Below the pieces are notes generated by a model. It was not told where the DNA came from, made no database searches, and saw nothing but the letters and a program-made list of their open reading frames with translations. 64,000 bases of DNA from Oryzomonas sp. (GTDB lineage Bacteria > Desulfobacterota > Desulfuromonadia > Geobacterales > Pseudopelobacteraceae), in NCBI GenBank assembly GCA_031292255.1, contig JARLHN010000020.1, positions 1-64,000 of the forward strand. The letters are read 5' to 3'. This document shows, piece by piece, positions 6,724 through 41,203 of the stretch. How positions within the stretch are numbered: the first letter of the stretch is position 1; each line of letters opens with the position of its first letter. The translations under genes and the position numbers were made by a program.

Positions 6724-6897
6724 GTCAACCGGAAAACCGGAGGCCAAGAACCCTGTCCCACAAACCGGTTTTTGTTGTTCTTTCCGGAGACACCCCGAAA
6801 AAAACACCGGCCGTCTCTCAGGACAATTGACGTAGCGGAAACCATGAGCTGCCGACCAGACACACTGGAGGCCGGGGGATGTATCCCTCGGCCTTTT
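6724..6897 (+). promoter_or_regulatory. Tandem leader attenuator (copies A and B)
   Basis: Copy B is clear: CCAG (6856-6859), ACACA loop, CTGG (6865-6868), AGG, then a 9-bp stem GGCCGGGGG/CCCTCGGCC (6870-6893) and five T, which is an intrinsic terminator. Copy A at 6724-6745 has the same first hairpin as CCGG-AAAA-CCGG followed by AGGCC, but its terminator half is degraded. The element lies between the promoter and the NifH-like gene and has relatives before other island operons (14.4, 17.3, 31.4, 39.1, 41.1 kb). A transcription-attenuation or riboswitch-like role is inferred; it was not matched to a named RNA family. Confidence 0.65.
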
Positions 6898-7069
6898 TAC
6901 GTTTTGGAGCTTGCGAGGACTACCCTTTGTGGTTAAGATTCTCATCCCGGCCGCCCTTCCGAACATCCTGACCGGTCTCAAGGTCGGCTGGGCCTTTGCA
7001 TGGCGAACCCTGACCGTCAACCTCCGGGGCATGCAACACTAACAACCATACGTGATCACGAGGTTCACC

Positions 7070-7936
7070 ATGACAAAGCACATCGCATTATACGGCAAGG
7101 GTGGCGTGGGCAAATCCACGCTTTCCTCCAACCTCAGCGCCGCCCTGGCAGAGGCCGGCTTCAGCGTCCTTCTGGTGGGTTGCGATCCAAAGGGCGATTC
7201 GTGCAGTCTTCTGAACAACGGTACCCCCATTCCGACAGTATTCGACCTGCTGCGGGAACAGGGCGACATCTCGGTGAATTCTGTTGTCCATGAGGGATTC
7301 AAGGGCATCACCTGTGTCGAGTTGGGCGACCCGTTCGATTCAGGCAGCTGCGGATCGGACGAGATAACCCGCGCCCTTGGGCACCTGAAAAGAATCGACC
7401 TGTTCGAAGCAGTCGCCCCGGACTTCGTGCTTTACGACATCTCCGGCGACAGTCCCTGTTCCAGCTTTTACACCCCGATCCAGCAACTCGGGGTCAGCCG
7501 GGTGTTTGTGGTGACCACGGCCGATTTCATGTCGCTGCACGCGGCAAATGCGATCTTCAGGATGCTGGAGCGTTACGGCGAGTCGAACGTGCCGGTCCCG
7601 GTGGGCGGACTGATCCCCAACAGCATCAACAGTTCGTTCGAGGAATCATTTATCGCCGACTTTGCCGCACAGACCCGCACGCAGACCATGGGGCGCATCC
7701 CCCGTTCCCTGATTGTCAGGCAGTGCGAATTGTACGGCAAGACCGTCATCGAGGCATCGCCCCTCTCCAACCAGTCCTACTTCTACCGCAGGCTGGCGAA
7801 CCAGATCGTTGACGACGATCAAGCGGGCGTCCCTGTCCCGATGCGCCCCGAAGAGCTGAGAGCCTGGGCCAGGGGGTGGGGCGACCGGATCCATGCCCTT
7901 GAAAACGGCCTGGTTACCGATGGCGCTGCGATTTGA
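7070..7936 (+). CDS. Divergent NifH-like ATPase of the corrinoid operon
   Basis: A 288-residue member of the NifH/BchL/CfbC family, whose members are homodimers with a bridging [4Fe-4S] cluster that pass electrons to a partner on ATP hydrolysis. The P-loop YGKGGVGKST (8-17) and switch region GCDPKGDS are normal. The two cluster cysteines are present but in unusual settings: C94 in SGSCGSDEI instead of GVGCAGRG, and C130 in GDSPCSSF instead of GDVVCGGF. The Arg used for ADP-ribosylation in true NifH is missing. The start at 7070 has GAGG upstream. It is the first gene of a run with a corrinoid protein, two methyltransferases and a RACo-like protein and has no NifDK partner nearby in that run, so its acceptor may be the corrinoid system. 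That is inference. Confidence 0.85.
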   Translation: MTKHIALYGKGGVGKSTLSSNLSAALAEAGFSVLLVGCDPKGDSCSLLNNGTPIPTVFDLLREQGDISVNSVVHEGFKGITCVELGDPFDSGSCGSDEITRALGHLKRIDLFEAVAPDFVLYDISGDSPCSSFYTPIQQLGVSRVFVVTTADFMSLHAANAIFRMLERYGESNVPVPVGGLIPNSINSSFEESFIADFAAQTRTQTMGRIPRSLIVRQCELYGKTVIEASPLSNQSYFYRRLANQIVDDDQAGVPVPMRPEELRAWARGWGDRIHALENGLVTDGAAI

Positions 7937-7970
7937 GCGGGACATATTTCAAACTGCAAGGAGAACAATA

Positions 7971-8618
7971 ATGGCGCGGAAGACCAAACAAGAACATCTA
8001 CAGGAACTGTCGGATGCTGTACTCGACATGGATGAGGAGAGGACGGTCAAAGCTGCCCACGAAGCGCTCGTCGAACATGTCGATCCCTATGATGCCATCC
8101 AGGGCGGCCTCTCCGACGGCATGGCCCGGGCCGGACAACTATTCGAGGACGAAGAGTATTTCATCCCTGAATTATTGATGTGCTCGGATGCCATGTATGC
8201 CGGCCTGGACGTACTCAAGCCGCACCTGAAACAAGTCGGCGAAAGCAGGGGCACGGTGGTGATCGGCGTCATCGAGGGAGATACCCATGATATCGGCAAG
8301 AACATGGTGCGCATCATGTTCGAGACCGGAGGATTCAAGGTCATCGACCTGGGGCGGGATGTCCCGCCCCAGCGTTTCGTGGATACGGCCCGTGAAGAAC
8401 AGGCCGATATCATTGCCCTGTCCACCTTGATGACGACAACCATGGACGGCATGGGAACCGTGGTCAGGCTGCTCGACGAGGCTGATATCCGTGACGGCAT
8501 CAAGGTCATGGTCGGTGGCGGCCCGATTTCACCCGGCTTTGCCAAACGTATCGGCGCCGACGGTTATGCCGTCAATGCCGCCGAGGCGGTCAAGGTCGCA
8601 CGTGAGCTTGTTGCGTAA
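7971..8618 (+). CDS. Corrinoid (B12-binding) methyltransferase protein
   Basis: A 215-residue MtaC/MtbC/MttC-type corrinoid protein, the methyl carrier between a substrate methyltransferase and an acceptor. The N-terminal helical cap domain (about 1-90) is followed by a Rossmann cobalamin domain with GDTHDIGKN, where H106 is the lower axial ligand, then ALSTLMTTT and the late GGGPIS loop that holds the nucleotide tail. Length and domain order are typical. The ATG at 7971 is preceded by AAGGAGAAC. It lies 34 bp after the NifH-like gene and 15 bp before the first methyltransferase, so it is clearly one transcript. The methyl donor cannot be read from this protein. Confidence 0.92.
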   Translation: MARKTKQEHLQELSDAVLDMDEERTVKAAHEALVEHVDPYDAIQGGLSDGMARAGQLFEDEEYFIPELLMCSDAMYAGLDVLKPHLKQVGESRGTVVIGVIEGDTHDIGKNMVRIMFETGGFKVIDLGRDVPPQRFVDTAREEQADIIALSTLMTTTMDGMGTVVRLLDEADIRDGIKVMVGGGPISPGFAKRIGADGYAVNAAEAVKVARELVA

Positions 8619-8633
8619 GGATACAATGCTGCC

Positions 8634-9710
8634 ATGACAATTCAAAAAAACGCATCAACAGCCGCAATGTCGCCATTGGAGCGCTTCGCCGCCTACAACA
8701 AGGGCGAGGCTATCGACCGGCTCCCCTGTGTGCCGATCATCGGCAATACGGCGGCTCGGGTGATCGGGGTCAAGGTCTCCCAGCTCCGCGGCAACGGGCG
8801 CTTGATCGCCGACGCCCAGATCGCGGCCTACCGCAGGTTCAATTACGACGTGATCCGGGTCTTTACCGACCTCTACACCCTGGCGGAGGCCATGGGGGCC
8901 GGGGTTCATTATCCCGAGGATGAAACAGCGTATCTTGAGAACCCTGCCATCTCCTCGATTGACGACATCGAACGCCTGCGCCCGGCCGATCCCCTCAAGG
9001 ACGGCAACCTGCCCCACCACCTGGAGGCCATGCAACGGGTAGTGAAGGCCCTGGGCAAAGAGGTGCCGGTTACCGGGGCCTTGACCTGTCCCTTCACCAC
9101 GGCATCATTTCTGATTGGCGCCGAAAACCTGGTGCGGCTTTCCATCAAGAATCCCGAAACGGTGCACCTGCTCTGCCGGGTGGCGTTGGAGTCGGCTATC
9201 CGTTACGCCGGGGCGATCATCGACGCCGGCTGTACCCCCAGCCTGACCGATCCCATGTCCTCCAGCACGGTCATCAGCCCGCGGCTTTTCAAGGAGTTTT
9301 CCCTCCCCTATCTCAAGACGCTGATCGAGTTCATCCATCAGCACGGAAAGAGCGTGACGCTGCACATCTGCGGCAAGACGGAGAAGGTCTGGGAAGCCAT
9401 GGCCGATGCCGGGGCGGACTGCATCAGCATCGACAACGACGCCAGCCTGAGCGGGGCAAGGGAATCCGTGGGGCATCGGCTCCGCATCATGGGCAACGTC
9501 AAGCCGTCCGAGGTCATGCTGCAGGGTACGCCGGCCGATGTGCGCCGGGCGGTCTTCGACAGCGTCGCCCAGGCCTGGGATTCTCCCAAGGGGTATATCA
9601 TCGCCTCCGGGTGCAGTCTGCCCACCGAGACCCCCTTTGCCAACATTCAGGCCATGATGGATGCCGCAACCGAGATCGGCTGGCCGGTGGCGCCGGAAAA
9701 CTTGATCTAA
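8634..9710 (+). CDS. MtaA/CmuA-type corrinoid methyltransferase 1
   Basis: A 358-residue protein of the uroporphyrinogen-decarboxylase superfamily, the MtaA/MtbA/CmuA branch. These are zinc-dependent TIM barrels that move methyl groups between corrinoid proteins and thiols. The zinc motif is visible as LHICGKTEK and, later, the ASGCSLPTETP loop. The N-terminal SPLERFAAYNKGEAIDRLPC segment and GNVKPSEVML are also typical. True heme-pathway UroD is excluded by the His-Cys...Cys zinc pattern and by the operon. The acceptor could be methanethiol, CoM or another thiol; CoM is unlikely in this organism. The stop is immediately followed by a dispersed repeat, and the next gene begins about 210 bp on. 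Confidence 0.88.
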   Translation: MTIQKNASTAAMSPLERFAAYNKGEAIDRLPCVPIIGNTAARVIGVKVSQLRGNGRLIADAQIAAYRRFNYDVIRVFTDLYTLAEAMGAGVHYPEDETAYLENPAISSIDDIERLRPADPLKDGNLPHHLEAMQRVVKALGKEVPVTGALTCPFTTASFLIGAENLVRLSIKNPETVHLLCRVALESAIRYAGAIIDAGCTPSLTDPMSSSTVISPRLFKEFSLPYLKTLIEFIHQHGKSVTLHICGKTEKVWEAMADAGADCISIDNDASLSGARESVGHRLRIMGNVKPSEVMLQGTPADVRRAVFDSVAQAWDSPKGYIIASGCSLPTETPFANIQAMMDAATEIGWPVAPENLI

Positions 9711-9899
9711 TTCCGGTTTCAAATCAAAGATGACATCAAGGCGGCAAGGATCGAGGCGACGAAGGCGTACAGGTGGTACGTTGAGGAGCCGAAGACGAGC
9801 CAACGACAATTTGCAAAGTAAATTGGACCGCGAAAGCGCCCCGTAGGGGGAGGCCGGAGGCCTCGTCAAGATGCCGCTTGGATTTGGAATTGGAATAAT
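9711..9899 (+). repeat. Dispersed 3'-end repeat, long form (R1, copy 1)
   Basis: Begins one base after a stop codon. Its ends are imperfect inverted repeats: TTCCGGTTTCAAATCAAAG at the left and the reverse complement of TTCCAATTCCAAATCCAAG at the right. The core includes GGCGACGAAGGCGTACAGG and GTACGTTGAGGAGCCGAAG. It carries an extra block of about 60 bases (around 9810-9870), shared only with the copy at 32.6 kb. Confidence 0.8.
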
Positions 9900-9922
9900 A
9901 ATTTTCGCTTCGGAGACACGAC

Positions 9923-10945
9923 ATGAGCTCGTTAAGCCCAAAAGAACGCCTGCTGCGGGTTTTGGACAACAAAGCAGTGGACCGCCCGCCGGTGATCTGC
10001 ACCGGCGGCATGATGAACGCCGCCATCGTCCAGGTGATGAACCTGACCGGCAATACCCTTCCGGCGGCCCACCACCAGGGAGAACTGATGGCGGCCCTGG
10101 CCGGGGATATCCACGACCATACCGGTTTCGAGAATATCGGCATCCCCTTCTGCATGACCGTGGAGGCCGAGGTCTTGGGCAGTGACATCAATTACGGCAC
10201 CCTGGCCTGCGAACCCAAGATCGAACGGGAGCGGTTCCCCTCCTCCGCCCAAGTCGAGTTCCGCGACATCACTACCATGCTCGGGAGCGGCCGCATCGCC
10301 GAGGTTGTCCAGGCCGGGCACCACATTGCCCGCAAAAATCCGGACCAGCCGGTGATCGGCAACCTGACCGGCCCGATCAGCACCGCCGCTTCCATCATCG
10401 ATCCGGTCACCTTCCTGAAAGAGTTGCGCAAGGATGCCGCCAATTCCCATCGGGTGCTGGAATACGTCAGTGATCTTTTGATCGCCTTTGCCTGCGAGAT
10501 GGTGGAAAACGGCGTGACCATGGTCTCCATCGGCGATCCGACCGCCACCGGCGAAATACTGGGACCCAGGATGTTCGAGGAGTACGCCGTGCGTTACCTC
10601 AACAAGGTCATCGACGGCATCCACGGCTTTGGCGCGCCGGTCATCGTCCACATCTGCGGGCGGCTGCAATCGGTCAAGCAGTTCCTGCCCCGCCTGCGCT
10701 GCGATGCGGTCAGCACCGACGCCCTGGTCAATCTCAAGCTGCTCAAGGAGGAGTTCCCCGGCCTGAAGGTAATGGGCAACGTCAGCACCTTCATGCTGGA
10801 GTTGGGGGACAGCGACAAGGTGGCCCGCCACACCGAAACCCTGATACGGGATGGGATCGACATCATCGCCCCGGCCTGCGGCCTGAGCACGGCCACATCG
10901 CTGGAGGTCATCCGCGCCATGACAGACACCGTAAAGGAGGGTTAA
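9923..10945 (+). CDS. MtaA/CmuA-type corrinoid methyltransferase 2
   Basis: 340 residues of the same UroD-superfamily methyltransferase branch as the gene upstream. Motifs: SPKERLLRVLDNKAVDRPPV at the start, GNLTGPISTAAS, VHICGRLQSVKQF with the zinc His and Cys, GNVSTFML, and ACGLSTATSLE with the last zinc Cys. It differs enough from its neighbour to suggest a distinct partner: one may demethylate the substrate and the other transfer to the final acceptor. Such pairs are known in methylotrophic and O-demethylase systems; the assignment of roles here is inference. The start has GGAGAC upstream and the gene is 6 bp from the RACo-like gene, inside the same operon despite the repeat before it. 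Confidence 0.88.
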   Translation: MSSLSPKERLLRVLDNKAVDRPPVICTGGMMNAAIVQVMNLTGNTLPAAHHQGELMAALAGDIHDHTGFENIGIPFCMTVEAEVLGSDINYGTLACEPKIERERFPSSAQVEFRDITTMLGSGRIAEVVQAGHHIARKNPDQPVIGNLTGPISTAASIIDPVTFLKELRKDAANSHRVLEYVSDLLIAFACEMVENGVTMVSIGDPTATGEILGPRMFEEYAVRYLNKVIDGIHGFGAPVIVHICGRLQSVKQFLPRLRCDAVSTDALVNLKLLKEEFPGLKVMGNVSTFMLELGDSDKVARHTETLIRDGIDIIAPACGLSTATSLEVIRAMTDTVKEG

Positions 10946-10951
10946 CGGCAC

Positions 10952-12610
10952 ATGGCTACCGTTCATTTCGTGCCTGCCGGCAGGTCTGTCTCGGTCGATC
11001 AGGGCACCACCATCCTGGAAGCCTCGCGGCGAGCCGGCGTGCTGATCGAAGCCCCCTGCAACGGAGCCGGCCACTGCGGCAAATGCACGGTGCAGATTCC
11101 GCTGGATGACCTTCCCCAGATTGTCGTCCATGTGGATGCACCGGCCGACGACAGCGGCGAGGGCGTGGTGCTGGCCTGCCACAGCGAGGTATACGGCGAT
11201 ATAACGGTTTTAGTACTCCACCGGGCCGAGGAAGGGCTGCGGGTGATCAGCGCCGGCAGCGGCGTTCAGGCCGAGCCGGATCCGTTCATTGTACGGCGCT
11301 ACGACGCAACCGCCCGTCAAACGGCTATTTGGGCCGGAGACAGGCTGCTGGCCGCTGAGCCGGGCGATACTACGGGCAAGAACTACGGCCTGGTGGTGGA
11401 TGTCGGCACCACCACCCTGGTGGCTGCCCTGGTTGACCTGGCCAACGGCCGGGAACTGACCTCGGCTTCCGCCCTCAACCCTCAAAGCCTGCATGCCCAG
11501 GACGTGTTGTCCCGCATCAGGTTCGCCGCCGATCATGACGGTTTGTCACTGCTTCAGCGCGACCTGATCACGGAACTCAATCGTCTGGCGCGGGAGGTCT
11601 CCACCAAGGCCGGCATTGACGTTGAAGAGATCTACGAGGTGGTCTTCAGCGGCAACACCTGCATGCTCCACCTGGCGGCCGGCGTCAATCCGGCCCCCCT
11701 GGGCAAAAACCCCTTCACCCCGACCCTGACCGGCAACAGTCATGTGGCGGCATCCGCACTCGGCCTCGCCATCGCGCCTTCGGGCCTAGTGTACCTCCCC
11801 CCCGTCATTTCGGCATACGTGGGCGCCGACATCAGCGCCGGTATCCTGGCTGCCGGATTGGCCGAGCTCCCGGGCGTGACCCTGTTCATCGATATCGGCA
11901 CCAACGGCGAACTGGTTCTGGCGGTCAACGGCCGCTTGACCGCCTCGGCCACGGCCGCCGGACCGGCCTTCGAAGGGATGAATATCTCCTGCGGCATGCG
12001 CGCCGCCGTGGGCGCCGTGGAGCGGGTAGCAATCGGGACAACGGGAGAGCTGGATATTGCCGTCATCGGCGCCGGCGTACCAAGCGGCATCTGCGGCAGT
12101 GGTCTGATGGACCTGGTGTCTGAATTGGTCGAGCACGGCATCATCGGCAATAACGGTCGCTTCGGCACCCCAACCGGCCTTGCCGCGCCCCTGGCGGCGC
12201 GTCTCGTCGGCGAAGGGAGCAAGGCGGCCTTCAGTATCAACGACACCGTTAGCCTTACCCAGAAGGATGTGCGCCAGGTGCAGCTTGCCAAGGGCGCCAT
12301 CCGGGCCGGAATCGAACTGCTGCTGCGGGAAGAGGGGCTTGAACCCAAACATCTCGACCGGGTCTATATAGCCGGCTCCTTCGGGTATCACCTGCGGGAG
12401 CAAAGCCTCACCACATTAGGGCTTTTGCCGCCGGAAGCGGCCGGAAAGGTTATGTTCCTCGGCAATACCGCCCGTAGCGGCGGTGAGATGCTGCTGGTTG
12501 ATCATCGCCTGCGCAGCGGCCTGAAGACGCTCGTCGATCAGGTGCGTGTGGTGGACCTGGCGGGCAATCCGGCCTTTGAGCGGGTTTTCATGGAGGCGAT
12601 GGGATTCTGA
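10952..12610 (+). CDS. RACo-like reductive activator of corrinoid protein
   Basis: A 552-residue ATP-dependent activator that returns inactive Co(II) corrinoid to Co(I). The N-terminal [2Fe-2S] ferredoxin domain shows C36, C42, C45 and C76 (EAPCNGAGHCGKCTVQ, then VLACHSE). A linker leads to the ASKHA ATPase part with VVDVGTTTLVAALVDL (phosphate 1), FIDIGTNGELVL (phosphate 2) and CGSGLMDLVSEL, IAGSFGYHLRE. Length and order match DUF4445/RACo proteins. The ATG at 10952 follows AAAGGAGGG in the end of the preceding gene. It is the last gene of the corrinoid operon. Having both this activator and a NifH-like ATPase in one operon is unusual, since both could supply low-potential electrons. Confidence 0.92.
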   Translation: MATVHFVPAGRSVSVDQGTTILEASRRAGVLIEAPCNGAGHCGKCTVQIPLDDLPQIVVHVDAPADDSGEGVVLACHSEVYGDITVLVLHRAEEGLRVISAGSGVQAEPDPFIVRRYDATARQTAIWAGDRLLAAEPGDTTGKNYGLVVDVGTTTLVAALVDLANGRELTSASALNPQSLHAQDVLSRIRFAADHDGLSLLQRDLITELNRLAREVSTKAGIDVEEIYEVVFSGNTCMLHLAAGVNPAPLGKNPFTPTLTGNSHVAASALGLAIAPSGLVYLPPVISAYVGADISAGILAAGLAELPGVTLFIDIGTNGELVLAVNGRLTASATAAGPAFEGMNISCGMRAAVGAVERVAIGTTGELDIAVIGAGVPSGICGSGLMDLVSELVEHGIIGNNGRFGTPTGLAAPLAARLVGEGSKAAFSINDTVSLTQKDVRQVQLAKGAIRAGIELLLREEGLEPKHLDRVYIAGSFGYHLREQSLTTLGLLPPEAAGKVMFLGNTARSGGEMLLVDHRLRSGLKTLVDQVRVVDLAGNPAFERVFMEAMGF

Positions 12611-14304: not shown

Positions 14305-14398
14305 TCTACCATATTTATAGTTATACTATAGAATATACCGCATAAGCACTATATCTATAGCAAAGCAGTACAGTCTGCATCAAACTATTCTGCGCTGA

Positions 14399-15850
<1,452 letters not shown>

Positions 15851-17189: not shown

Positions 17190-17266
17190 GAATGCCACTT
17201 GAGCACCACCACACAAGTCAAAAAAACTATCCCGCTTTTTTCATGAATTTCATCAGCAACGACCGA

Positions 17267-17320
17267 CCAGACACACTGGAGGTCAAGGGAGGGCGATTAC
17301 GCCCATACCTTGACCTCTTT
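17267..17320 (+). promoter_or_regulatory. Leader attenuator before the nitrogenase-like operon (copy D)
   Basis: CCAG-ACACA-CTGG (17267-17279), identical in its hairpin to copy B at 6856, then AGG and a terminator stem AGGTCAAGG/CCTTGACCT with an inner GGGC/GCCC pair, followed by a T-rich run. It lies about 77 bases after the predicted start of transcription and 33 bases before the NifX-like gene. Confidence 0.72.
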
Positions 17321-17352
17321 TTTTATTTTACACCGCCTCGTGGAGCTGACAC

Positions 17353-17697
17353 ATGGACGTAAAGATTGCCGTGGCAAGCAGCGACGGAGCGACCATAAAC
17401 GAGCATTTCGGCAGAGCGCACGCCTTCCGCATCTACCGGTTGCACGATCTGGGACATGAATTCCTGGAACTGCGGGAAAATACCCCGGCCTGCGGCGGGC
17501 AGCAGCATGACGATGATGTCTTGGACAAGGCGGCACAGCTCATTTCAGACTGCCGAGGGGTTGTTGCCGCCCAGGTTGGCCCCGGCGCCATCGACACCCT
17601 CATCGGCCACCGGATTCTGGCTTTCACCATGAGCGGCTCCATAGATGCGGCCCTCGAAACCTTGCGGTCGTCGAAGCGCTTTACCTACATCAAATAA
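17353..17697 (+). CDS. NifX/NafY-type cofactor-handling protein
   Basis: A 114-residue single-domain protein of the dinitrogenase iron-molybdenum cofactor family (NifX, VnfX, NafY, C-terminus of NifB). These bind FeMo-co or its precursor NifB-co. Visible: KIAVASSDGATINEHFGRAHAFRIY, which is the family hallmark with a conserved His, then DCRGVVAAQVGPGAIDTLIG and the closing helix. Length is that of a stand-alone domain. It opens an operon with NifH 12 bp later. Because the NifB-like protein at 31.5 kb lacks its own NifX domain, this protein may serve as its carrier. That link is inferred. Confidence 0.88.
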   Translation: MDVKIAVASSDGATINEHFGRAHAFRIYRLHDLGHEFLELRENTPACGGQQHDDDVLDKAAQLISDCRGVVAAQVGPGAIDTLIGHRILAFTMSGSIDAALETLRSSKRFTYIK

Positions 17698-17709
17698 CCG
17701 GGAGAACAC

Positions 17710-18585
17710 ATGACAAAGAAAGCAAAGCAGATAGCGATCTACGGCAAGGGCGGCATCGGCAAGTCCACCACCACCTCCAATATCACCGCCGCTCTGTCGG
17801 TTGCCGGTTACCGGGTCATGCAGATCGGTTGCGATCCCAAGAACGACTCTACCGTTACCCTGCGAGGGGGCAACTACATCCCCACCATCCTCGATACGTT
17901 GCGGGAAAAGAAAAACGCCAAGGCCGAAGAGGTCGTTTTCTCAGGCTTCAACGGGGTCTTTTGCGTGGAGGCCGGCGGACCGGCACCGGGGGTCGGCTGC
18001 GCCGGACGCGGCATCATCACCGCCATTGAACTTCTCAAGCAGCAACGGGTCTTTGAAACACTGGACCTGGATTACGTCATCTACGACGTTCTGGGAGACG
18101 TGGTCTGCGGCGGCTTTGCCGTGCCGATCCGGGAAGGAATCGCCGAACATGTCTTCACGGTGTCGTCGTCGGACTTCATGGCCATATACGCCGCCAACAA
18201 CCTTTTCACCGGCATCAAGAAGTACTCGAACAACGGCGGTGCGCTCCTGGGCGGCGTGATCGCCAACTCTGTCAATGCGCCATACGCCAAGCACATCATC
18301 GACGATTTCGTGGCACGCACCAACACCCAGGTAATAGAGTACGTGCCCCGCTCGATCACCGTCACCCAGTCCGAGTTGCAGGGCAAGACCACCATCGAAG
18401 CCTTTCCCGATTCCGAACAGGCCCAGGTCTACAAAAAACTTGCCCACAGGATCGCCAACCATACCGAATCCAGGGTACCGGAACCGTTGAGCGCGGAGGC
18501 ATTGAGAAAATGGGCGGCCGAATGGTCCGACCAGATCCTGGCCGTTGAAACCGGGGAAATCCGCAGCAACGGGGCAAGCATTTAA
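17710..18585 (+). CDS. NifH-like reductase component
   Basis: 291 residues with all features of the iron-protein family: P-loop [14 protein letters not shown] (11-24), GCDPKNDS switch, cluster cysteines C97 (GVGCAGRG) and C133 (GDVVCGGF), and R100 next to C97 as in true NifH. It would be the ATP-driven electron donor for the NifDK-like proteins 3 kb downstream. Full nitrogenase is unlikely: there is no nifEN and no other nif regulator nearby, and sulfur genes surround it. It fits the nitrogenase-like group that includes methylthio-alkane reductase, chlorophyllide and coenzyme F430 reductases. RBS GGGAG precedes the ATG. Confidence 0.93.
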
Positions 18586-18603
18586 TTCCGCGAGGATATC
18601 ACC

Positions 18604-19419
18604 ATGTACGAAGTAACGTTGTCGAACGTCGATTATTCCTACAGTGACCACCGGGTGTTGCAGGGCATCACCTTCACGGCCGAGGCGGGAGATTTCGTTT
18701 GCCTGCTGGGTCCCTCCGGGTGCGGCAAGAGTACCCTTTTGCGGCTTTTGGCAGGTCTTTCCTTTCCCTCGTCGGGTGACATCACCCTGGACGGTAAGCG
18801 GATCACAGGTCCCGGCCTGGACCGGGGCGTGGTCTTTCAGGACTATTCGCTGTTTCCCTGGATGACTGCCGGCCAGAATATCGTCCTGACCCTGGAGCAG
18901 GCTTTTCCCGGGAAGAATAAAGAGGAATACCGCCAGGCGGCGGCCGACTACCTGGAGATGGTCGGCCTGGCGGGTGCCTATGGCAAACTGCCCGGCCTGC
19001 TTTCCGGAGGAATGCGCCAACGTGCGGCAATTGCGCGGGCCTTTGCCATTAACGCCCCGGTACTCTTGATGGATGAACCATTCGGTGCGCTGGACGCCAT
19101 CACCCGAGCCCGCCTCCAGGACCTGCTTCTCCAACTCTGGCAACAACGGGAGGGGGAGCGCAAGACGGTATTCTTCGTCACCCACGACGTGGAGGAGGCC
19201 ATCCTGCTGGCCAATCGCATCATTGTATTGGGGCTCAATCCCGGCACCGTCAAGGGCATCTTCGAGGTTGACCTGCCCCGTCCGCGCGTACGCCAGGAAC
19301 TCTACAAGACGGAGGCGTTTGCCGCCCTGCGGGACAGGCTGGTGACGGTGCTCCACGAGAACATACTCTCCGAGCTGGATGGTGGACAGACGGTGCGTTC
19401 CGATGGAGAGGGAATATGA
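18604..19419 (+). CDS. SsuB/TauB-type ABC transporter ATPase
   Basis: A 271-residue ATP-binding subunit. Walker A is GPSGCGKST, the Q-loop VFQDYSLFPWMT, the signature LSGGMRQR, Walker B VLLMDEPFGALD and the switch His is in FFVTHDVEEA. The sequence type is that of importers for nitrate, sulfonates, taurine and similar small anions or neutral sulfur compounds. It lies 18 bp after the NifH-like gene and overlaps the start region of the binding-protein gene, so the importer is made with the reductase. The substrate is probably an organosulfur compound processed by the NifDK-like enzyme; this is context only. Confidence 0.93.
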   Translation: MYEVTLSNVDYSYSDHRVLQGITFTAEAGDFVCLLGPSGCGKSTLLRLLAGLSFPSSGDITLDGKRITGPGLDRGVVFQDYSLFPWMTAGQNIVLTLEQAFPGKNKEEYRQAAADYLEMVGLAGAYGKLPGLLSGGMRQRAAIARAFAINAPVLLMDEPFGALDAITRARLQDLLLQLWQQREGERKTVFFVTHDVEEAILLANRIIVLGLNPGTVKGIFEVDLPRPRVRQELYKTEAFAALRDRLVTVLHENILSELDGGQTVRSDGEGI

Positions 19420-19451
19420 CGCGTATTACACATTATGAAAGGAGATGTACG

Positions 19452-20501: not shown

Positions 20502-20510
20502 GTTCATATC

Positions 20511-21416: not shown

Positions 21417-21446
21417 TTATATGCCAGCTCCCAAGGAGACAAATTT

Positions 21447-24877: not shown

Positions 24878-24899
24878 CGTAGGTGAAAGGGAGGGCGAT

Positions 24900-25709: not shown

Positions 25710-25835
25710 TCCCTCAAGCAAGGTGTGCGACTAAACACTGCTAATCGGTGTAGTATCTGGCTCTAACAAAAATTATAGTCTACCAAACTAGTAGATTTAG
25801 TAAACATAACTACTTGTTTTTTATATTTTTTATGA

Positions 25836-25863: not shown

Positions 25864-25926
25864 TTTTCCATTGAACAAAACTGTTGATTGATCTGACGAA
25901 TAAACCACCCAGAAAAGGAAGCGACC

Positions 25927-27384: not shown

Positions 27385-27568
27385 TTAGTTTCCGTCCGGA
27401 TAGGGTTCTTTTTCGCCCATGCGGCGTCAATCTTCGGGCTTGCTTGTGCGGCGTACCGATGTACGCCTCCGCGCAATCCCTTGATTTCCTTGCCTGGACA
27501 AAAAAGCCCTCCTTTCCGAATCGGAAACCAATAGTTTTTCACCCGGCGTTTCCGGATGAAAACGAATT
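27383..27568. repeat. Composite palindromic repeat between the shell genes (R2, copy 2)
   Basis: The left half of the palindrome (AATTAGTTTCCGTCCGGA, 27383-27400) and a complete copy (27530-27568, ending TCCGGATGAAAACGAATT) flank about 130 bases that contain GCGGCGTACCGATGTACGCC. The outer halves are inverted repeats of each other, so the whole looks like a miniature inverted-repeat element. It fills most of the gap between the two shell genes; its left edge overlaps the stop of shell gene 1. Confidence 0.75.
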
Positions 27569-27619
27569 AACCCTGCTGGTGGCGCCTGATTGCCAGGTCG
27601 CCGGAAAATGGAGGCAACG

Positions 27620-29062
27620 ATGTCTGAGAATAGTCTGTTGCAGCGAAGTGTAACGACCGCGGTTGCCAGGAATTTGGCTACCACGTCCAAGACCAACCCG
27701 AAGATGATGTCCATCACCCCGCGCTGGCTGCTCAACATGCTGCCTTGGGTGCAGGTGAACGGCGGCACCTACCGGGTCAACCGGACCAAGGTGGAGCTAT
27801 CCAAGGCCGAGCGGGTCGAGATCGACCTGACCGAAGGGAAGGCAAGCTTTTCGCCGGAATCCCTGAGAAGCGTGCCGGTCTTCTCAAGGCTCCCCGACGC
27901 CCTGATCTCACGAATGGCCGCCGGCTTCAGGACCGAGCAGGTCTCTCTCGGCAACAAGCTGGTAGTAGAAGGTGCCGAAGAGAACAAGTTCTTCATCATC
28001 GCCCAGGGGCAGGTGGAGGTGCTGAGCAAGGGGGCACACGGCAGCGACCTGCGGATCGCTCTCCTTACCGAAGGGGAATATTTCGGCGAGATCGAACTGG
28101 TCACCAACCGCACCTCCGACGTGACTGCCCGCACCATCACGCCTTGTGTCCTATTGACCCTGTCGCGAAAGGAGTTGGAGGGTATCCTCAAGAAGACCCC
28201 CAGCCTGAGCGAAGAGTTCAAGAAGGTCACGGACGAGCACCTGGAACTCTTAACCACGGTCAACAAGTACGGCGAGCGGAACATAGACCTGGTATCCGGC
28301 TTTGCCGAAAACATCGAGATCCCCGAGACCTTTGTCGATTACTCCGCCCATCCCCGGGAATACTCCCTGTCGTCCGTACAGACGGTGGTCCGGGTCCACA
28401 CCCGCGTGTCGGACCTCTACAACGGCCCGTACGATCAGCTCGAAGAGCAGATGCGGCTCACCATCGAGGGGATCAAGGAGCGGCAGGAGTGGGAACTGAT
28501 CAACAGCACCAAATTCGGCCTGCTCCATTCGGCGGACCCGTCAATGCGGATCAGTACCCGCTACGGCACACCGACCCCTGACGATCTGGATGAACTGCTG
28601 GCGCTGGTCTGGAAGAAACCGGCCTTCTTCCTGGCCCACCCCAAGGCAATTGCCGCTTTTGGCCGCGAATGTACCTGGCGCGGCGTACCGCCACCAACAG
28701 CCAACCTTTTCGGCACCGAGGTCATTACCTGGCGTGGCGTGCCGCTCATCCCGTGCGACAAACTGGAGATCAAGAGCCGCTTCCATTCGAACCAATGGCT
28801 CGGCACCACCAGCATCATCCTGGTGCGGGTCGGCGAAGCGGATCAGGGCGTAGTCGGACTTCACCAGGTCGGCATCCCCGGCGAAATCCTGCCGAGCCTC
28901 TCGGCGCGGCTGATGAAAACCGACAACCTGGGGGTTGCTTCGTACCTGCTCTCTCTCTACTTCTCCCTTGCCGTTCTGACCGATGATGCACTGGCGATCC
29001 TGGAAAACGTCGAGGTCGGGTATTACCACGACTACGAGCATCGGAAACCGAAAGTCAAGTAA
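27620..29062 (+). CDS. Family 2B encapsulin shell protein 2 (cNMP-binding domain)
   Basis: 480 residues, a close paralogue of shell protein 1 along its whole length with the same order: N-terminal arm, CRP-like domain (IIAQGQVEVLSKGAHGSDLR, GEYFGEIELVTNRTSDVTART) and HK97 shell domain (NKYGERNIDLVSGFAENIEI, GLHQVGIPGEILPSLSARLM). Differences cluster in the arm, the surface of the nucleotide domain and the C-terminus (DYEHRKPKVK against DYAHREQGGFNHGLGI). ATG 27620 follows GGAGG and aligns with the start of protein 1. Two-component Family 2B shells are known, so the two probably co-assemble, perhaps with the C-termini or nucleotide domains giving two surfaces. Confidence 0.9.
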   Translation: MSENSLLQRSVTTAVARNLATTSKTNPKMMSITPRWLLNMLPWVQVNGGTYRVNRTKVELSKAERVEIDLTEGKASFSPESLRSVPVFSRLPDALISRMAAGFRTEQVSLGNKLVVEGAEENKFFIIAQGQVEVLSKGAHGSDLRIALLTEGEYFGEIELVTNRTSDVTARTITPCVLLTLSRKELEGILKKTPSLSEEFKKVTDEHLELLTTVNKYGERNIDLVSGFAENIEIPETFVDYSAHPREYSLSSVQTVVRVHTRVSDLYNGPYDQLEEQMRLTIEGIKERQEWELINSTKFGLLHSADPSMRISTRYGTPTPDDLDELLALVWKKPAFFLAHPKAIAAFGRECTWRGVPPPTANLFGTEVITWRGVPLIPCDKLEIKSRFHSNQWLGTTSIILVRVGEADQGVVGLHQVGIPGEILPSLSARLMKTDNLGVASYLLSLYFSLAVLTDDALAILENVEVGYYHDYEHRKPKVK

Positions 29063-29128
29063 GGCTCTGGCAGAAATAAGCAGTAATGTCCGGTCAGGAA
29101 ATTGCTTTGACTGAAACATGCCATAAAA

Positions 29129-29155
29129 TCCCCCCTCCCCTTGCGGGAGGGGGAG
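29129..29155. terminator. GC-rich hairpin after the second shell gene
   Basis: CCCCTCCC, a short TTGC-type loop and GGGAGGGGG form a strong stem about 65 bases after the shell stop and 50 before the desulfurase. There is no T run, so it might moderate rather than end transcription, for example to give more shell than cargo. Confidence 0.4.
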
Positions 29156-29205
29156 CTAACTGCAAATACCAAACCGGACAAAGCTGAGAAATAAGGGGCA
29201 AACGC

Positions 29206-31089
29206 ATGAATGATATAACACCCGAGTTGATTGCGTCCATCGCGACAAGGCTCTACAACGAGATACCGGGAGCGAATCTGGTTCCGAAAACGGAAGCCGA
29301 TCTGCCCCAGGGGATTCCCGATATCGGAAGCCTGCCGGGAGCGCCGGCACAGGTGACTACCGGAAACTTCGCCCTGCCAACAAGACCGGGAGGTTCAAGC
29401 ATCCCCGGCTTGGCCGCTGCCACACCAAACATTACCGGCATACCGTCACTGTCGGCCACCTCTCCCGACGGCTACGGACTGCCGGGGCTGTCCGGCCTGA
29501 CTCCTTCCGGGCCCGGCTCCACGGGCGGCGCCGGCAACAGCGCCGAAAGCTTCACCCTCCCCGGCGCCGCCGGGCTGGGACCTCACGGCTACAGCGTCCC
29601 CAGCCCCAAGGCTATCCCTGCCGATACCGTCGGTATTCCCGGTCTCTCCGGAATATCGCCGTCCTGGCCCGGGACTCTGCGTGAAACACCGGCAACATCC
29701 GAGAGCTTCACGGTTCCCGGCGGCACTACCGATTCGACCGACGGCCTGAGCGCGTTTGTGCGGAAGATCCGCTCCGGTCATATCCGCAATGAGGACGGCA
29801 CCTGCCGGGCCGGGCACGACCCGGACATCCTGCAGCGGCTCTTCGCCCCCAAAACCGCAACGGACGGGGGCGCCCGGCCGCTGGACATCCCGGCCATCCG
29901 CAAGGATTTTCCGGCATTGAACCAGAAGATTCACGGCAAACAACTGGCCTGGATGGATAACGGCGCCACCACCCAGAAACCGCAGAGCGTCATCGATGCC
30001 GTCTCCCGGTTCTATGAGAACGATAACTCGAACATCCACCGCGGGGCGCACACCTTGGCCGCGCGGGCCACTGATGCCTTCGAGCAGGCCCGGCAGAAGG
30101 TGCAGACCTTTCTCGGCGCCTCATCCAGCAAGGATATCGTCTTTGTCCGGGGAACCACCGAAGGGATCAACCTGGTTGCACAGACCTACGGACGCAAATT
30201 CCTGCAACCGGGTGACGAAATCGTCCTTTCCACCCTGGAGCACCACGCCAATATCGTACCCTGGCAGATGATCGCCAAGGAGAAGGGGGCCGTCATCCGG
30301 GTGATTCCGGTAAACGACCGCGGCGAAGTCATGCTGGATGCCTACGAGGCGTTGCTTGGGCCGCGCACCAAGCTGGTGGCCCTCACCCAGGCATCCAACA
30401 GCCTCGGCACGATCCTGCCGGTGGCGGAGATGACCCATGCCGCCAAACGCTACAACGCCCGGGTGCTGATTGACGGCGCGCAGTCGGTGTCCCACATGCC
30501 GGTGAACATGCAGGAAATCGGCTGCGACTTCTTCGTGTTTTCCGGCCACAAGATATTCGCACCGACCGGTATCGGCGCAGTCTACATCAACGAACAACTC
30601 CATGAAATTCTTCCACCATGGCAGGGAGGCGGCAACATGATCAAGAACGTCACCTTCGAGGAGACCACCTATAACGAGGCACCGGCCAAGTTTGAGGCAG
30701 GCACCCCCAACATTGCCGATGCCGTCGGTCTTGGAGCCGCCCTGGATTATGTCAACCGGCTGGGGTTGGTCAATACCGGCAAATACGAGCATGAACTGTT
30801 GGTCTATGCGACGGAACAGCTCTCCAAAATCAATGGGGTCCGTTTACTCGGCAACCCCCGCGAAAAGGTGGCGGTCATCTCCTTTGTCATTAAGGACCGC
30901 AAGACCGAAGAGGTAGGCCAACTCCTCGACCAGGAAGGGATAGCCGTGCGGGCGGGACACCACTGCGCCCAGCCGTCGTTGCGCCGGTTCGGCGTCGAAT
31001 CGTCGGTTCGTCCCTCTTTCGCCTTCTACAATACCTTTGACGAGATTGACCGGCTGGCGGACGCCGTCAGGAGAATTACGCAAAACTGA
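29206..31089 (+). CDS. Encapsulin cargo: SufS-type cysteine desulfurase
   Basis: 627 residues, about 220 more than SufS. Residues 225-627 are a class II cysteine desulfurase: LDIPAIRKDFPALNQ, EHHANIVPWQ, PLP lysine K449 in FSGHKIFAPTG, and catalytic C587 in RAGHHCAQPSLRRFG. It strips sulfur from cysteine as a persulfide or elemental sulfur, leaving alanine. Residues 1-20 form a short helix; about 25-185 are Gly/Pro/Ser-rich and disordered, with a ten-residue unit repeated at 65-74, 78-87, 91-100 and 143-152 (for example GLPGLSGLTP, GIPGLSGISP). Such N-terminal extensions are the loading region of Family 2 encapsulin cargo. A TusA-like acceptor lies 9 bp downstream. Confidence 0.94.
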   Translation: MNDITPELIASIATRLYNEIPGANLVPKTEADLPQGIPDIGSLPGAPAQVTTGNFALPTRPGGSSIPGLAAATPNITGIPSLSATSPDGYGLPGLSGLTPSGPGSTGGAGNSAESFTLPGAAGLGPHGYSVPSPKAIPADTVGIPGLSGISPSWPGTLRETPATSESFTVPGGTTDSTDGLSAFVRKIRSGHIRNEDGTCRAGHDPDILQRLFAPKTATDGGARPLDIPAIRKDFPALNQKIHGKQLAWMDNGATTQKPQSVIDAVSRFYENDNSNIHRGAHTLAARATDAFEQARQKVQTFLGASSSKDIVFVRGTTEGINLVAQTYGRKFLQPGDEIVLSTLEHHANIVPWQMIAKEKGAVIRVIPVNDRGEVMLDAYEALLGPRTKLVALTQASNSLGTILPVAEMTHAAKRYNARVLIDGAQSVSHMPVNMQEIGCDFFVFSGHKIFAPTGIGAVYINEQLHEILPPWQGGGNMIKNVTFEETTYNEAPAKFEAGTPNIADAVGLGAALDYVNRLGLVNTGKYEHELLVYATEQLSKINGVRLLGNPREKVAVISFVIKDRKTEEVGQLLDQEGIAVRAGHHCAQPSLRRFGVESSVRPSFAFYNTFDEIDRLADAVRRITQN

Positions 31090-31333: not shown

Positions 31334-31375
31334 ATGTCACGTATCTATGAATCCATCGACGGCAGCGGCATTTAG
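31334..31375 (+). pseudogene. Possible stub of cysK
   Basis: An AGGAG-preceded ATG ten bases after the TusA-like stop opens a 13-codon frame MSRIYESIDGSGI, then a stop. The first eight residues match the common start of cysteine synthase CysK (MSRIY-SI followed by a TIGNTPLV segment), but the rest is absent. It may be the remains of a deleted cysK that completed this CysE-desulfurase operon. With only eight residues this could be chance. Confidence 0.35.
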
Positions 31376-39231: not shown

Positions 39232-39573
39232 GAGAAGTGTGCAAATTGTCATGCGGAGCCCGGCTTTCCGATAACCGGAAGGTCATGAGCATCCCGCTTC
39301 TCTATCCACCAGCGAGCCTTGATTTCACCCACGCAATGGAAATTTATCGGCTCCGTCATTATCGGCAGATTTTACCACCATTCCTGTCCAAAAACAATAC
39401 ACTGCCCGATGGCAAGTATGCTTCCAATACCAATACCCCCGGCGCCGACCGGACAGGCGAACAGACAGAGTCCGCAGGAATGTTTTTTCCCAATGTGGCA
39501 ATATATTTTTCACGCTTCTTGTGAGGAGCCGAAAACGATCCGACAAAGATAACATCTCGATTTTGAGGCTGTA

Positions 39574-40641
39574 TTACTGGAAGCGTGCCGGGTCCAGGGG
39601 CCAGCGGCCATAATCGCGGGCCGCCCGGACCAGGGCGTGGAGATTCGCAGGGGGCGTGTCTATGGGCAGTCCACACCCCAGGCCGAGAATGTACCCTTTG
39701 GGGCTGTCCCAGGCCTTGGCCAGGCATTCCTTGGCATTATCCCGCACATTGTCCGGCGTTCCCAGATACATGACCGTTGTGGGACGGACATTGCCCAGAA
39801 GCGCCACCTTGTCCCCCACCCTGGCCTTGGCCTCGCCGATGTCGACCATGTCGTCCAGGGAGAGGATCCCGGCGCCGGTAGCGACCATATCCTCCCAAAT
39901 CTTTGAGGTATTGCCGCAGATGTGCAGCGAGGGAGGACCGCCGGCCAAGGCGGTGATCCGCTGCACGGTCTCCGTGAGGTACGGCAGGGCGAACTCCCGG
40001 AACTGGCGCGGACTGATCAGGGTGCCGGAGGAGGTTGGGTCGGCCAATCCGGGGCGCACGCCGACCTGAATAGCCCTTTCGGCAAAGCGGACGATGCTTT
40101 CGGTGGCGAATCGCAACAGGCGATGGGCAAACCCGGGGTTTTTGTGCAGGTCGCGCAGAAAAATATCGGTACCACGGATATTGGCGGCAGTGGTAAAGGG
40201 ACCGGACGTGGTCATGGAAACCGGCACCTGGTCGCCGACCTCCCGTACGACGATGGCGCCGGCTTCCAGAAAGAGCGGCAAGCGGCCATCCTTCTCCGGG
40301 TCGGGAATCTTCAAACGGTCCAGGTCCGCTTCTTCCTTGACGATAAATTCCGCGATATACGGCGTATTGTCGGGAAAGGCCACCTTGCTGCCGATGGCTT
40401 CGGGAATACCCGACAGCCCTGGCCCGGTATTGACCAGATCCGAACCGTATCTTCGCCATGCGGCGATCTGTCCTTTGGCCAACAACCGGGCCGAGTTGTT
40501 GTACTCGCCGACACTTACCCCGATCACCCGGGCGGCATGGTCGCTGATCAGCAGGTTAACCGGGATGCGGTCATATGGTTTGCCGCTCAGGGCAGCTATG
40601 GTACGTTCCTTGGAAGTCATGGTTTCGATGGCTGCCGTCAT
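39574..40641 (-). CDS. MtaA/CmuA-type corrinoid methyltransferase 3
   Basis: 355 residues of the UroD-superfamily methyltransferase branch, most like methyltransferase 1 at 8.6 kb: TSKERTIAALSGKPYDRIPV start, TTSGPFTTAANIRGT, PSLHICGNTSKIWEDM with the zinc His and Cys, GNVRPTTVMYLGTP and LGLGCGLPIDTPPAN with the last Cys. ATG 40641 follows AGAGG; an open frame to 40725 is not needed. It has no corrinoid protein beside it and probably works with the one at 8.0 kb. The shared leader element, present here twice, supports joint control with that operon. Confidence 0.88.
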   Translation of the reverse strand: MTAAIETMTSKERTIAALSGKPYDRIPVNLLISDHAARVIGVSVGEYNNSARLLAKGQIAAWRRYGSDLVNTGPGLSGIPEAIGSKVAFPDNTPYIAEFIVKEEADLDRLKIPDPEKDGRLPLFLEAGAIVVREVGDQVPVSMTTSGPFTTAANIRGTDIFLRDLHKNPGFAHRLLRFATESIVRFAERAIQVGVRPGLADPTSSGTLISPRQFREFALPYLTETVQRITALAGGPPSLHICGNTSKIWEDMVATGAGILSLDDMVDIGEAKARVGDKVALLGNVRPTTVMYLGTPDNVRDNAKECLAKAWDSPKGYILGLGCGLPIDTPPANLHALVRAARDYGRWPLDPARFQ

Positions 40642-41070
40642 GATCTGGTTACCTCTTTTCTGCTGGGTTGGGGTGGTGGGCGGGGTGACGAAAGCGGCTC
40701 CGCACGTGGACAACAAGTGTGTCAATCAACCTGCCTCGCCGGCTGTAGGCCTCCAGCGCCCGATTGACCTCCGCTTGTACGGCAAAAACCATGATTCACT
40801 TGGTGCGAAGTAAGAGCGCCGTCTCCTTCGGCACAGAAGCAGCCAGAATGACGCCGACATCGGTCAGCAGCAACGCCGCGGCCTGAGGTATCAGCGGCAG
40901 ATGTTCGCAACGGGGCCGGGGTGGAGTCGAGCGCCGCTCCTCGAAGGCGCAGGCGCCACGTCCACCGGGCCTTTCAGGGCAAAGGAACGGATGGCCAGGA
41001 GCGCGTCAGTTTTGATATCAACGTGCTTCCTGCGGATAATGGTCGGCTGTTGCCCCACATATTCCCCCGT
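40642..41070 (-). other. 430-bp leader or decayed region before methyltransferase 3
   Basis: Between the attenuators and the methyltransferase start there are only short minus-strand frames (for example one reading MVFAVQAEVNRALEAYSRRG near 40790) with no family match and with stops between them. Either an unusually long untranslated region or the remains of a lost gene. Confidence 0.4.
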
Positions 41071-41203
41071 AAAAAAAGACCGGCGCGAGTAACGCGGCCG
41101 GTCTCTGGTTTTTCCAGTCAACCTTGGATTTCCTATTTGTTTTTGAGCACATACAAATAAAAAGAGGCCAAAGGAATATCCCTTGACCTCCGGTGTTCCG
41201 GTC
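41071..41203 (-). promoter_or_regulatory. Tandem leader attenuators (copies H and G)
   Basis: Transcribed first, copy H (41159-41203): CCGG-AACA-CCGG, AGG, then TCAAGGG paired with CTTTGGCC-type bases and five T; its AGGTCAAGGG matches copy D. Then copy G (41071-41119): CTGG-AAAAA-CCAG, AGACC, a stem CCGGCCGCG/CGCGCCGG and seven T. Two attenuators in a row also occur at 6.7-6.9 kb. Confidence 0.68.

Follow-up and report, generated by a model that had tools for sequence, protein, structure and literature searches.

The window analysed in this work, a 64,000-nucleotide stretch of an Oryzomonas sp. genome (contig JARLHN010000020.1 of assembly GCA_031292255.1, positions 1 to 64,000 of the forward strand), contains an island of nitrogenase-like, corrinoid and sulfur genes, in front of which a short RNA element (a small hairpin followed by an intrinsic terminator) occurs repeatedly. 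An earlier inspection of the letters alone (hereafter the original prediction) had listed eight such sites, proposing that they share one layout and mark a regulon across the island. Here we describe the element, its distribution, and its association with the small protein family DUF2292 (YezD/OscA), a candidate partner. The common layout holds for the sites at 6856, 14399, 17267, 31442 and, on the minus strand, 39163, 41203 and 41119, but not for the one at 6722. The elements (e1 to e8), with their scores against the covariance model R1 introduced below, are the following:

6722..6773, plus strand: e1, degenerate (GGTC-AA-CCGG-AAAA-CCGG-A-GGCC), with no matching terminator, in tandem with e2; 17.3 bits, fold
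6849..6900, plus strand: e2, before genes for a NifH-like protein, a corrinoid protein, two UroD-type methyltransferases and a RACo activase; 63.2 bits, Pfam
14392..14457, plus strand: e3, before an O-acetylhomoserine sulfhydrylase/homocysteine synthase gene; 55.9 bits, NCBIfam
17260..17322, plus strand: e4, before a Nitro_FeMo-Co protein gene and a long run of sulfur and nitrogenase-like genes; 56.5 bits
31435..31483, plus strand: e5, before a NifB-like radical SAM gene; 52.9 bits
39117..39168, minus strand: e6, before an aldehyde-dehydrogenase-family gene, with LarE further down; 57.7 bits
41159..41208, minus strand: e7, first of a tandem pair before a UroD-type methyltransferase gene; 54.8 bits
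41071..41124, minus strand: e8, second of the tandem pair, with a compensatory GGTT/GACC lower stem; 54.4 bits

Tandem elements before a single operon are thus found twice in the window (e7/e8, both intact, and the degenerate e1 with e2), and also in relatives (loci L043 and L247). The seven intact copies consist of a CYRG arm, an A-rich loop of 4-5 nt, a second CYRG arm, an A and an intrinsic terminator, which starts at its 5' side with GGCC, GGTC or GACC and ends at its 3' side in a T-run. The hairpin, spacer and terminator had been described correctly; what the original prediction had missed is that the bases 5' of the hairpin (GCC, GCT, ACC or GTT, then GA) also pair with the GRYC of the terminator 5' arm, as can be seen in the copies at 17267 (GACC-GA-CCAG-ACACA-CTGG-A-GGTC) and 41119 (GGTT-GA-CTGG-AAAAA-CCAG-A-GACC). 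Two folds follow from this: a 23-nt antiterminator, made of the lower stem, a GA/A internal loop, the upper stem and the A-rich loop, and an alternative formed by the upper hairpin and the intrinsic terminator. Since both the antiterminator and the terminator use the GRYC arm, they are mutually exclusive.

The model R1, built from the seven intact copies, scores these same copies at 52.9-63.2 bits (a circular result, as they trained it), and the best match in the window outside the elements reaches 11.7 bits in a search with the filters off. The site at 6722, which folds into the hairpin with the extended lower stem and has no matching terminator, is a degenerate neighbour of the one at 6856. 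A non-circular test was made with the pattern GACYNGN{3,6}CNRGAGRYC over the whole genome (3,724,464 bases), with the reversed pattern as control. The pattern has 25 matches, seven of which lie in the window, and its reversed control has 18 genome-wide; with 0.32 matches expected in 64 kb from the 18 outside it, the window is enriched about 20-fold over its own genome (P(>=7) = 4.7e-8). Three of the 18 outside matches were read (L003, L006 and L009), and none of these has a terminator.

Within the seven window copies both structures scored better than slid controls and, on most measures, better than shuffles; for the antiterminator, the count of further pair types was equalled in 44 of 500 shuffles. 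Two larger alignments, both fitted to the upper hairpin and the terminator with the lower-stem pairs absent from the aligning model, were also analysed: an order-wide set formed by the best 150 of 169 matches from fetched stretches (149 distinct, the seven window copies included) and a set of 47 sequences from other lineages (45 distinct). Among the distinct sequences of the order set, pairing amounts to 99.3% for the upper stem and 89.6% for the lower stem, and 95 cells carry a change in both partners, compared with 29.8 in shuffles (controls that ignore kinship); the third lower-stem pair is G-C in 111 sequences, A-U in 25 and G-U in 13. In the other lineages the corresponding pairing is 97.2% and 90.9%, with the outermost lower pair being G-C in 19, A-U in 9, G-U in 3 and U-G in 1, and unpaired in 12. 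Both helices therefore covary in homologues, in the order and beyond it, which bears out the suggestion that the RNA structure is kept. The loop is also strongly conserved: of the 150 order sequences, 147 have an A in the first position, 149 in the third and 145 in the last. By computed energy, the combination of terminator and upper hairpin is favoured over the antiterminator in all 150 sequences of the order set and in 46 of 47 from the other lineages, and the lower stem is present in no minimum-energy fold of either (150 + 47 sequences); the terminator is the default fold.

Searching the order with R1 gave strong matches throughout, mostly with sulfur-linked genes downstream. In the set of relatives (147 genomes), counts are based on a best element of E<1e-12 or E<1e-10, and an initial count of 131 element genomes at E <= 0.05 was dropped, as the weak matches look like plain GGCC terminators: when 24 loci from seven genomes were read, 13 (at E 8.9e-6 or weaker) resembled such terminators, and matches of 2e-9 to 4e-9 in G096, G116 and G087 were unconvincing on reading. 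An exact-core scan of 84,980 species genomes returned 65 stretches, most of them from Geobacter relatives; the others include Syntrophomonas, two Heliobacterium species, Clostridium ljungdahlii, one member of the Peptococcaceae, one of the Coriobacteriaceae and a Planctomyces metagenome-assembled genome (MAG), the assignments of MAGs being open to contamination. Whole-genome searches found multiple copies per genome in Heliobacteria, C. ljungdahlii and one Bacillota MAG. A second set, for which 199 genomes were sampled evenly across the phylum to which Heliobacterium mobile belongs, contains 21 carriers at an element cut-off of E <= 1e-5. Pattern matches in Frankia (L123) and Rhodocytophaga (L128) were discarded as chance, as were eight viral ones without a terminator (L357, L358, L360, L444, L446, L448, L449 and L450). 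The regulon of the original prediction thus stands, but not its restriction to the island, as the element is common to many Geobacter relatives, Bacillota, a Coriobacteriaceae MAG and phage contigs.

The genes behind the element are mostly linked to sulfur. The first downstream open reading frame (ORF), picked by script for 195 of 197 elements (with one representative per family checked by Pfam/NCBIfam), belongs in 134 cases to 12 checked sulfur, nitrogenase-like or corrinoid families: NifH-like (24), CysK (18), rhodanese (15), NifB-like (14), ATP-binding cassette (ABC) ATPase (14), MetK (11), MetY (9), UroD (9), DsrE-like (6), NMT1/SsuA-like (5), nitrogenase-like (5) and sulfate-binding (4). 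The remaining 61 come from smaller families or stand alone, some of them without an assignment. In C. ljungdahlii, where names were given by recognition, NifB/NifHDK-like genes are found behind the element, and other copies are followed by a sulfonate-type transporter together with adenosine 5'-phosphosulfate (APS) reductase and CysND-like genes, by an amino-acid transporter, or by a run that includes methylthioribose-salvage-like genes. The statement that all sites precede nitrogenase-like, corrinoid or sulfur operons applies to six of the seven intact ones; e6 stands before a gene of the aldehyde dehydrogenase family, and a sulfur-linked gene, that of the transferase LarE, comes only further down. 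That none precede housekeeping genes is correct within the window, but in relatives the element is also found before core genes, metK and cysK among them. Separately, the elements at L063:13780-13837 and L087 lie before an exporter-like gene (MIRKIAEKIIRYRVQVLL..., by recognition), which is no obvious sulfur gene.

Covariation and the mostly sulfur-linked genes downstream support a conserved attenuator leader that marks a regulon, and our confidence is high that we are dealing with a genuine transcription attenuator linked to sulfur. A plain repeated terminator, or a DNA operator, without any regulation would agree with the palindromic nature of the CYRG arms and with the weak model matches being plain GGCC terminators; it is nevertheless highly improbable, given a lower stem that covaries across the asymmetric GA/A loop, strict loop bases and a fixed position before mostly sulfur-linked genes. 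Moreover, a terminator repeated throughout the genome is not what was found: R1 matches only the seven window copies in their own genome at E <= 0.05, and the strong matches in relatives are mostly before sulfur-linked genes.

The element matches no RNA catalogued in Rfam. As the original prediction had stated, there is no match to a known riboswitch, the search of the window against Rfam giving elsewhere only transfer RNA and c-di-GMP-I; a second stretch with three elements (L043) gave a best E of 0.46, far below the gathering scores. In the searchable literature (which mostly excludes subscription papers) we found no description of the element RNA or of RNA binding by DUF2292. The c-di-GMP-I riboswitch of the window (4812-4892, minus strand, 54.7 bits) is an observation apart; it precedes a gene of the resolvase type and one encoding a large PAS histidine kinase. 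A very small riboswitch, whose hairpin would bind a sulfur metabolite with DUF2292 as a bystander, would explain the strictly conserved bases in the loop and internal loop, and also the mostly sulfur-linked genes behind the cellular copies. We consider it quite unlikely, as the conserved part measures only ~23 nt and has no Rfam riboswitch match, and as it would give no reason for the co-occurrence with DUF2292 that is described in the following paragraphs for both genome sets and for phage contigs.

DUF2292 (PF10055), a family of 60 residues, surfaced from clustering the ORFs of the islands, being present in 34 genomes. PF10055 is above cut-off in 64 of the 147 relatives and in 35 of the 199 genomes of the second set; the proteins are relatives of OscA rather than equivalogs, as judged from the NCBIfam OscA equivalog NF033785 (33.1 bits, E 4.2e-8, under its cut-off of 85 bits). 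Among the relatives, 53 of the 55 genomes with a best element of E<1e-12 carry DUF2292, compared with 11 of the 92 others (p 2e-26). Seven of these 11 have an element between 1e-12 and 1e-8; the remaining four comprise three genomes of 70-81% completeness and G025, which is complete. Moving the threshold to E<1e-10 gives 57 element genomes with and 7 without DUF2292, against 7 with and 76 without among the others; at 1e-8 the figures are 60/14 against 4/69. The second set behaves in the same way, with DUF2292 in 19 of 21 element genomes versus 16 of 178 others (p 4e-15), or in 17 of 19 (p 1e-13) when two previously known carriers are left out. Additionally, 11 genomes from outside the order were followed up from the pattern scan. 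Eight of them encode DUF2292 (E <= 1.5e-13), in G155 a weak match (4.3e-5) ends just before the element, and none was found in G156 and G157.

The two are also neighbours. In a sample of 20 DUF2292 genes (every fourth row, with the hairpin found by pattern, irrespective of terminators), an element-like hairpin lies 27-221 nt past the stop codon in 11, and within ~1.0 kb downstream in three more; two have a hairpin upstream and four have none (L363, L364, L368 and L379). Seen from the element, DUF2292 is the commonest gene ending at most 150 nt upstream (25 of the 191 elements for which the upstream sequence was long enough, the next families having 9 and 9), a result in which only the ranking is informative, since the loci were chosen for carrying elements. 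The arrangement is well illustrated by a plasmid of Cytobacillus spongiae (L384:4760-5176), where an S-box riboswitch (86.6 bits), YezD and the element (39.2 bits with a model, R2, that was not trained on it) are followed by genes for phosphoadenylyl-sulfate reductase, a transporter, sat, cysC and sulfite reductase; in this region two sulfur controls stand in series before a sulfate assimilation operon.

Two other candidate partners were tried and rejected. ANTAR proteins are present in 61 of 64 element genomes (E<1e-10) and in 74 of 83 others (p 0.23); they occur in genomes free of the element and are missing from G093 (12 matches, 99% completeness). That the element is an ANTAR-target RNA is the least credible of the explanations considered here: the antitermination mode is known and ANTAR proteins exist in the order, but no second hairpin and no hexaloop with A1 and G4 were seen, and the co-occurrence shows no association. 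DUF2325, found in 54 of the 147 relatives, is only weakly associated (p 0.02) and is absent from the element-rich G018, G021 and G024. As a separate observation, small DUF2325 proteins are encoded directly behind an element in two lineages (L187:10149-10199 and L253:6483-6552).

Phage contigs offer a view of the pairing outside the cellular regulon. Nine distinct phage or phage-like sites were examined, those of L359, L361, L443, L445 and L447 coming from a viral contig collection and the phage nature of L129, L135, L395 and L401 being a guess. A DUF2292-like ORF overlaps the element, or ends at most 103 nt before it, at six of the nine (L093, L361, L395, L401, L445 and L447). Our own DUF2292 profile scores the six phage ORFs at 7.7 to 21.6 bits, and among 1363 small ORFs from the phage loci and the window its top two are those of L445 (14.4) and L447 (12.8), the next one reaching 4.3. 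Packaging genes are close by (a terminase large subunit before the element of L445, a portal behind that of L093 and a terminase small subunit behind that of L447); the gene behind L445 has no PHROG match, and a tblastn search of INPHARED with a phage DUF2292-like ORF returned one weak match (E 0.3). No sulfur gene was recognised among the ORFs read beside the phage sites, and the link of DUF2292 therefore seems to be to the RNA element itself. The DUF2292-like ORF and the element could possibly form a phage antitermination module.

We propose that the element is a default-off attenuator opened under sulfur limitation by DUF2292, acting as an RNA-binding antiterminator, a reading to which we give a probability of roughly 0.6. 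In this mechanism, RNA polymerase would first make the 23-nt hairpin (GGCY-GRYC, GA/A internal loop, CYRG-CYRG and A-N-A-N-A loop). Left alone, the terminator would win, as the computed energies predict, and the sulfur operon would be off. When sulfur is short, DUF2292 would bind the two conserved loops of the hairpin, keeping GRYC from the terminator, and the polymerase would pass. A DUF2292 gene in front of an element would give feed-forward control of its own operon, and its product would act in trans on the other copies. The sign of the control (antitermination) is deduced from the terminator being the default fold. Between the small-molecule and protein-sensing options raised in the original prediction, the evidence favours the protein DUF2292/YezD over a small molecule alone.

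Several observations weigh against this proposal. In the order set, the number of pairs with any two-sided change (4) is not above that of shuffles, 172 of 500 of which also reach 4. No DUF2292 was found by Pfam in seven of the 64 relatives with an element of E<1e-10 (G000, G009, G012, G015, G034, G081 and G091); an alignment of our own, searched at E up to 10, did not find it in five of these and gave marginal matches (E above 1) in G034 and G081. One of them, G091, has six good elements and is 98% complete, while G009, G012 and G015 each carry a single strong element or few. The pairing also fails in the other direction: the complete genome G025 has DUF2292 and no convincing element, Novosphingobium plasmids carry DUF2292 with no element, and among the 16 second-set genomes with DUF2292 only, 14 have no element that could be found (in the other two, G327 and G232, an element that the search had not listed stands right behind DUF2292). 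Three of the nine phage-like sites have no DUF2292-like ORF (L443, L359/L135 and L129), the element of L443 scoring 42.6 bits all the same. The predicted fold of DUF2292 resembles no solved RNA-binding protein (0 of 71 fold matches at E <= 0.001), and DUF2292 could be a mere member of the regulon, since the co-occurrence test covered, besides DUF2292, only ANTAR and DUF2325. Finally, the proposal assumes a trans role, because for 166 of the 191 elements no DUF2292 gene ends in the preceding 150 nt. This last count also bears on a cis mechanism, in which a ribosome translating DUF2292 up to the element would decide the fold. The DUF2292 stop codon does fall at the edge of the element in some copies, but the distance from stop to element varies from overlap to >120 nt and DUF2292 is conserved as a protein across lineages, which together with the 166 elements without it makes such leader-ORF attenuation very unlikely.

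The window's own genome (G000) is among these exceptions: with seven elements and 88% completeness, it has no DUF2292 either by Pfam at E up to 1 or by alignment at E up to 10. Relics of DUF2292 were found beside elements in G000, G034 and G081. The relic of the window is

31334..31375, plus strand: scar just 5' of e5, a 13-codon ORF, MSRIYESIDGSGI

MSRIYESIDGSGI begins with residues that match CysK from a relative (MSRIYEDNS in L330) and ends with residues that match the DUF2292 tail (IDGSGI); in the relatives G001 and G005 an intact DUF2292 lies at this place. A deletion of DUF2292 is the simplest reading of this ORF; an assembly fault is possible.

The same attenuator could also be worked by another protein, such as an Rrf2 regulator or a factor not considered here, with DUF2292 as a regulon member only. 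The Rrf2 family is present in 24 genomes of the fetched islands, with some of its genes right behind or near an element (L048, L071:6072-6539 and L207:5308-5637), and elements persist in G000 and G091, where DUF2292 was not detected. Rrf2 regulators are DNA-binding proteins as far as is known, which counts against this choice, as do the DUF2292-like ORFs that precede the element in phage contigs without recognised neighbouring sulfur genes. DUF2325, an occasional member of the regulon, has only the weak association given above. On balance, we find it unlikely that another protein works the switch, and retain DUF2292 as the probable antiterminator.

How DUF2292 would sense sulfur is suggested by its C-terminus, which ends in -GI (resembling the CysK-docking tail) in 47 of 112 unique genes (DGSGI in 24, DGGGI in 7, YGDGI in 3, and others). 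Of these 47, 28 directly follow cysK and 19 do not in the sequence examined, whereas four DUF2292 genes that follow cysK have no such tail; in G001 the cysK stop codon overlaps the DUF2292 start. The background of -GI endings is 88 of 7314 other island ORFs (uncorrected for kinship). In the known complex, CysE docks in the CysK active site through its C-terminal Ile and is released by O-acetylserine, as described in passages of PMC5562914. By analogy, CysK might hold YezD by the C-terminal -GxGI tail of the latter at low O-acetylserine, and the rise in O-acetylserine brought about by a shortage of sulfur would free YezD to open the attenuators. DUF2292/YezD would then be a new family of RNA-binding antiterminators with CysK as the sulfur sensor, of which phages would carry a tail-less, stand-alone module near their packaging genes. 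We put this forward tentatively, as an extension that is doubtful as a whole, and the sensor would not be universal, because 65 of the 112 DUF2292 genes have no tail. An AlphaFold2 prediction from 33 aligned DUF2292 proteins gives a helix (residues 11-23) and a beta hairpin (27-45), with a mean predicted local distance difference test (pLDDT) of 78.8 and a predicted template modelling score (pTM) of 0.51; G27, Q40, E45, K46 and R48 are invariant, and no sequence relative of DUF2292 was found in the PDB. The predicted structure neither supports nor refutes RNA binding.

The genes that the window elements precede are located as follows:

7052..12610, plus strand: genes behind e1/e2, encoding the NifH-like protein, the corrinoid protein, two UroD and RACo; Pfam
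17353..31089, plus strand: long sulfur and nitrogenase-like run behind e4
39574..40725, minus strand: UroD-type methyltransferase gene (MtaA/CmuA-like, below cut-off) behind e7/e8

The run behind e4 includes genes for a Nitro_FeMo-Co protein, a NifH-like protein, an ABC transporter with an SsuA-family-like binding protein, fused nitrogenase-like subunits, a DsrE-like protein, serine acetyltransferase, encapsulins and cysteine desulfurase. Two of its parts deserve a separate description. A protein of 953 residues with two nitrogenase component-1 domains (21447-24308, plus strand), encoded behind the NifH-like gene and the ABC transporter, may be, as a guess, a fused nitrogenase-like enzyme that cleaves C-S bonds; and two consecutive genes for type 2A encapsulin shells (SrpI-like, with a cyclic nucleotide (cNMP)-binding domain) are found together with a cysteine desulfurase gene of the cargo type (25927-31089, plus strand). 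Additionally, AT-rich near-palindromes lie between a TTGAC box and the element at 14317-14331 (plus strand, ATAGTTATACTATAG) and 39181-39210 (minus strand, TATATAATTTATAGTTATAT), and these could possibly be DNA operators for a second regulator, acting at initiation.

If the proposed mechanism is true, it would provide a function for YezD/OscA, a small protein of unknown role, and an extra regulatory layer for sulfur scavenging in anaerobes. This layer would include the corrinoid methyl-sulfur gene clusters, for which the pertinent passages of PMC10418091 describe altered expression without giving a mechanism of control. The element and DUF2292 would form a compact candidate RNA-protein pair that is present in phage contigs too.

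Like known antitermination attenuators, the element has antiterminator and terminator helices that exclude each other and are kept by covariation, and the terminator is the default by computed energy in 196 of 197 sequences. The ribonucleic antiterminator (RAT) of BglG/LicT is a small hairpin with an asymmetric internal loop that overlaps the 5' arm of a terminator; termination is the default, and the regulator gene often lies beside its own terminator. The architecture of a single hairpin, the default termination and the adjoining gene of the (here proposed) regulator are thus shared, but the size and sequence differ from those of the RAT, and DUF2292 has 60 residues and no known link to a sugar phosphotransferase system (PTS). 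The ANTAR-target RNAs (EutV, NasR), which according to passages of PMC3369931 have two hairpins with hexaloops carrying A1 and G4, resemble our proposal in that a protein brings about antitermination at intrinsic terminators throughout a metabolic regulon; the element, however, is a single hairpin, whose A-N-A-N-A loop measures 4-5 nt in all seven window copies and in nearly all aligned relatives. The S-box (S-adenosylmethionine, SAM) and other sulfur riboswitches similarly attenuate transcription of methionine and cysteine genes, but the element has no Rfam match and only ~23 conserved nucleotides, and in Cytobacillus both coexist, with the S-box upstream. OscA of Pseudomonas corrugata, which forms one unit with sbp, is connected in passages of PMC2996968 and PMC3596284 to sulfur starvation and chromate resistance, and PMC2996968 calls it a small protein whose function is unknown; in contrast to what we propose for DUF2292, these passages link OscA to no RNA. 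Finally, CymR of B. subtilis works, according to passages of PMC4961446, in complex with CysK on promoter DNA. The -GI tails suggest that DUF2292 may likewise be a sulfur regulator working with CysK, with the difference that CymR acts on promoter DNA, whereas DUF2292 would act on an RNA attenuator.

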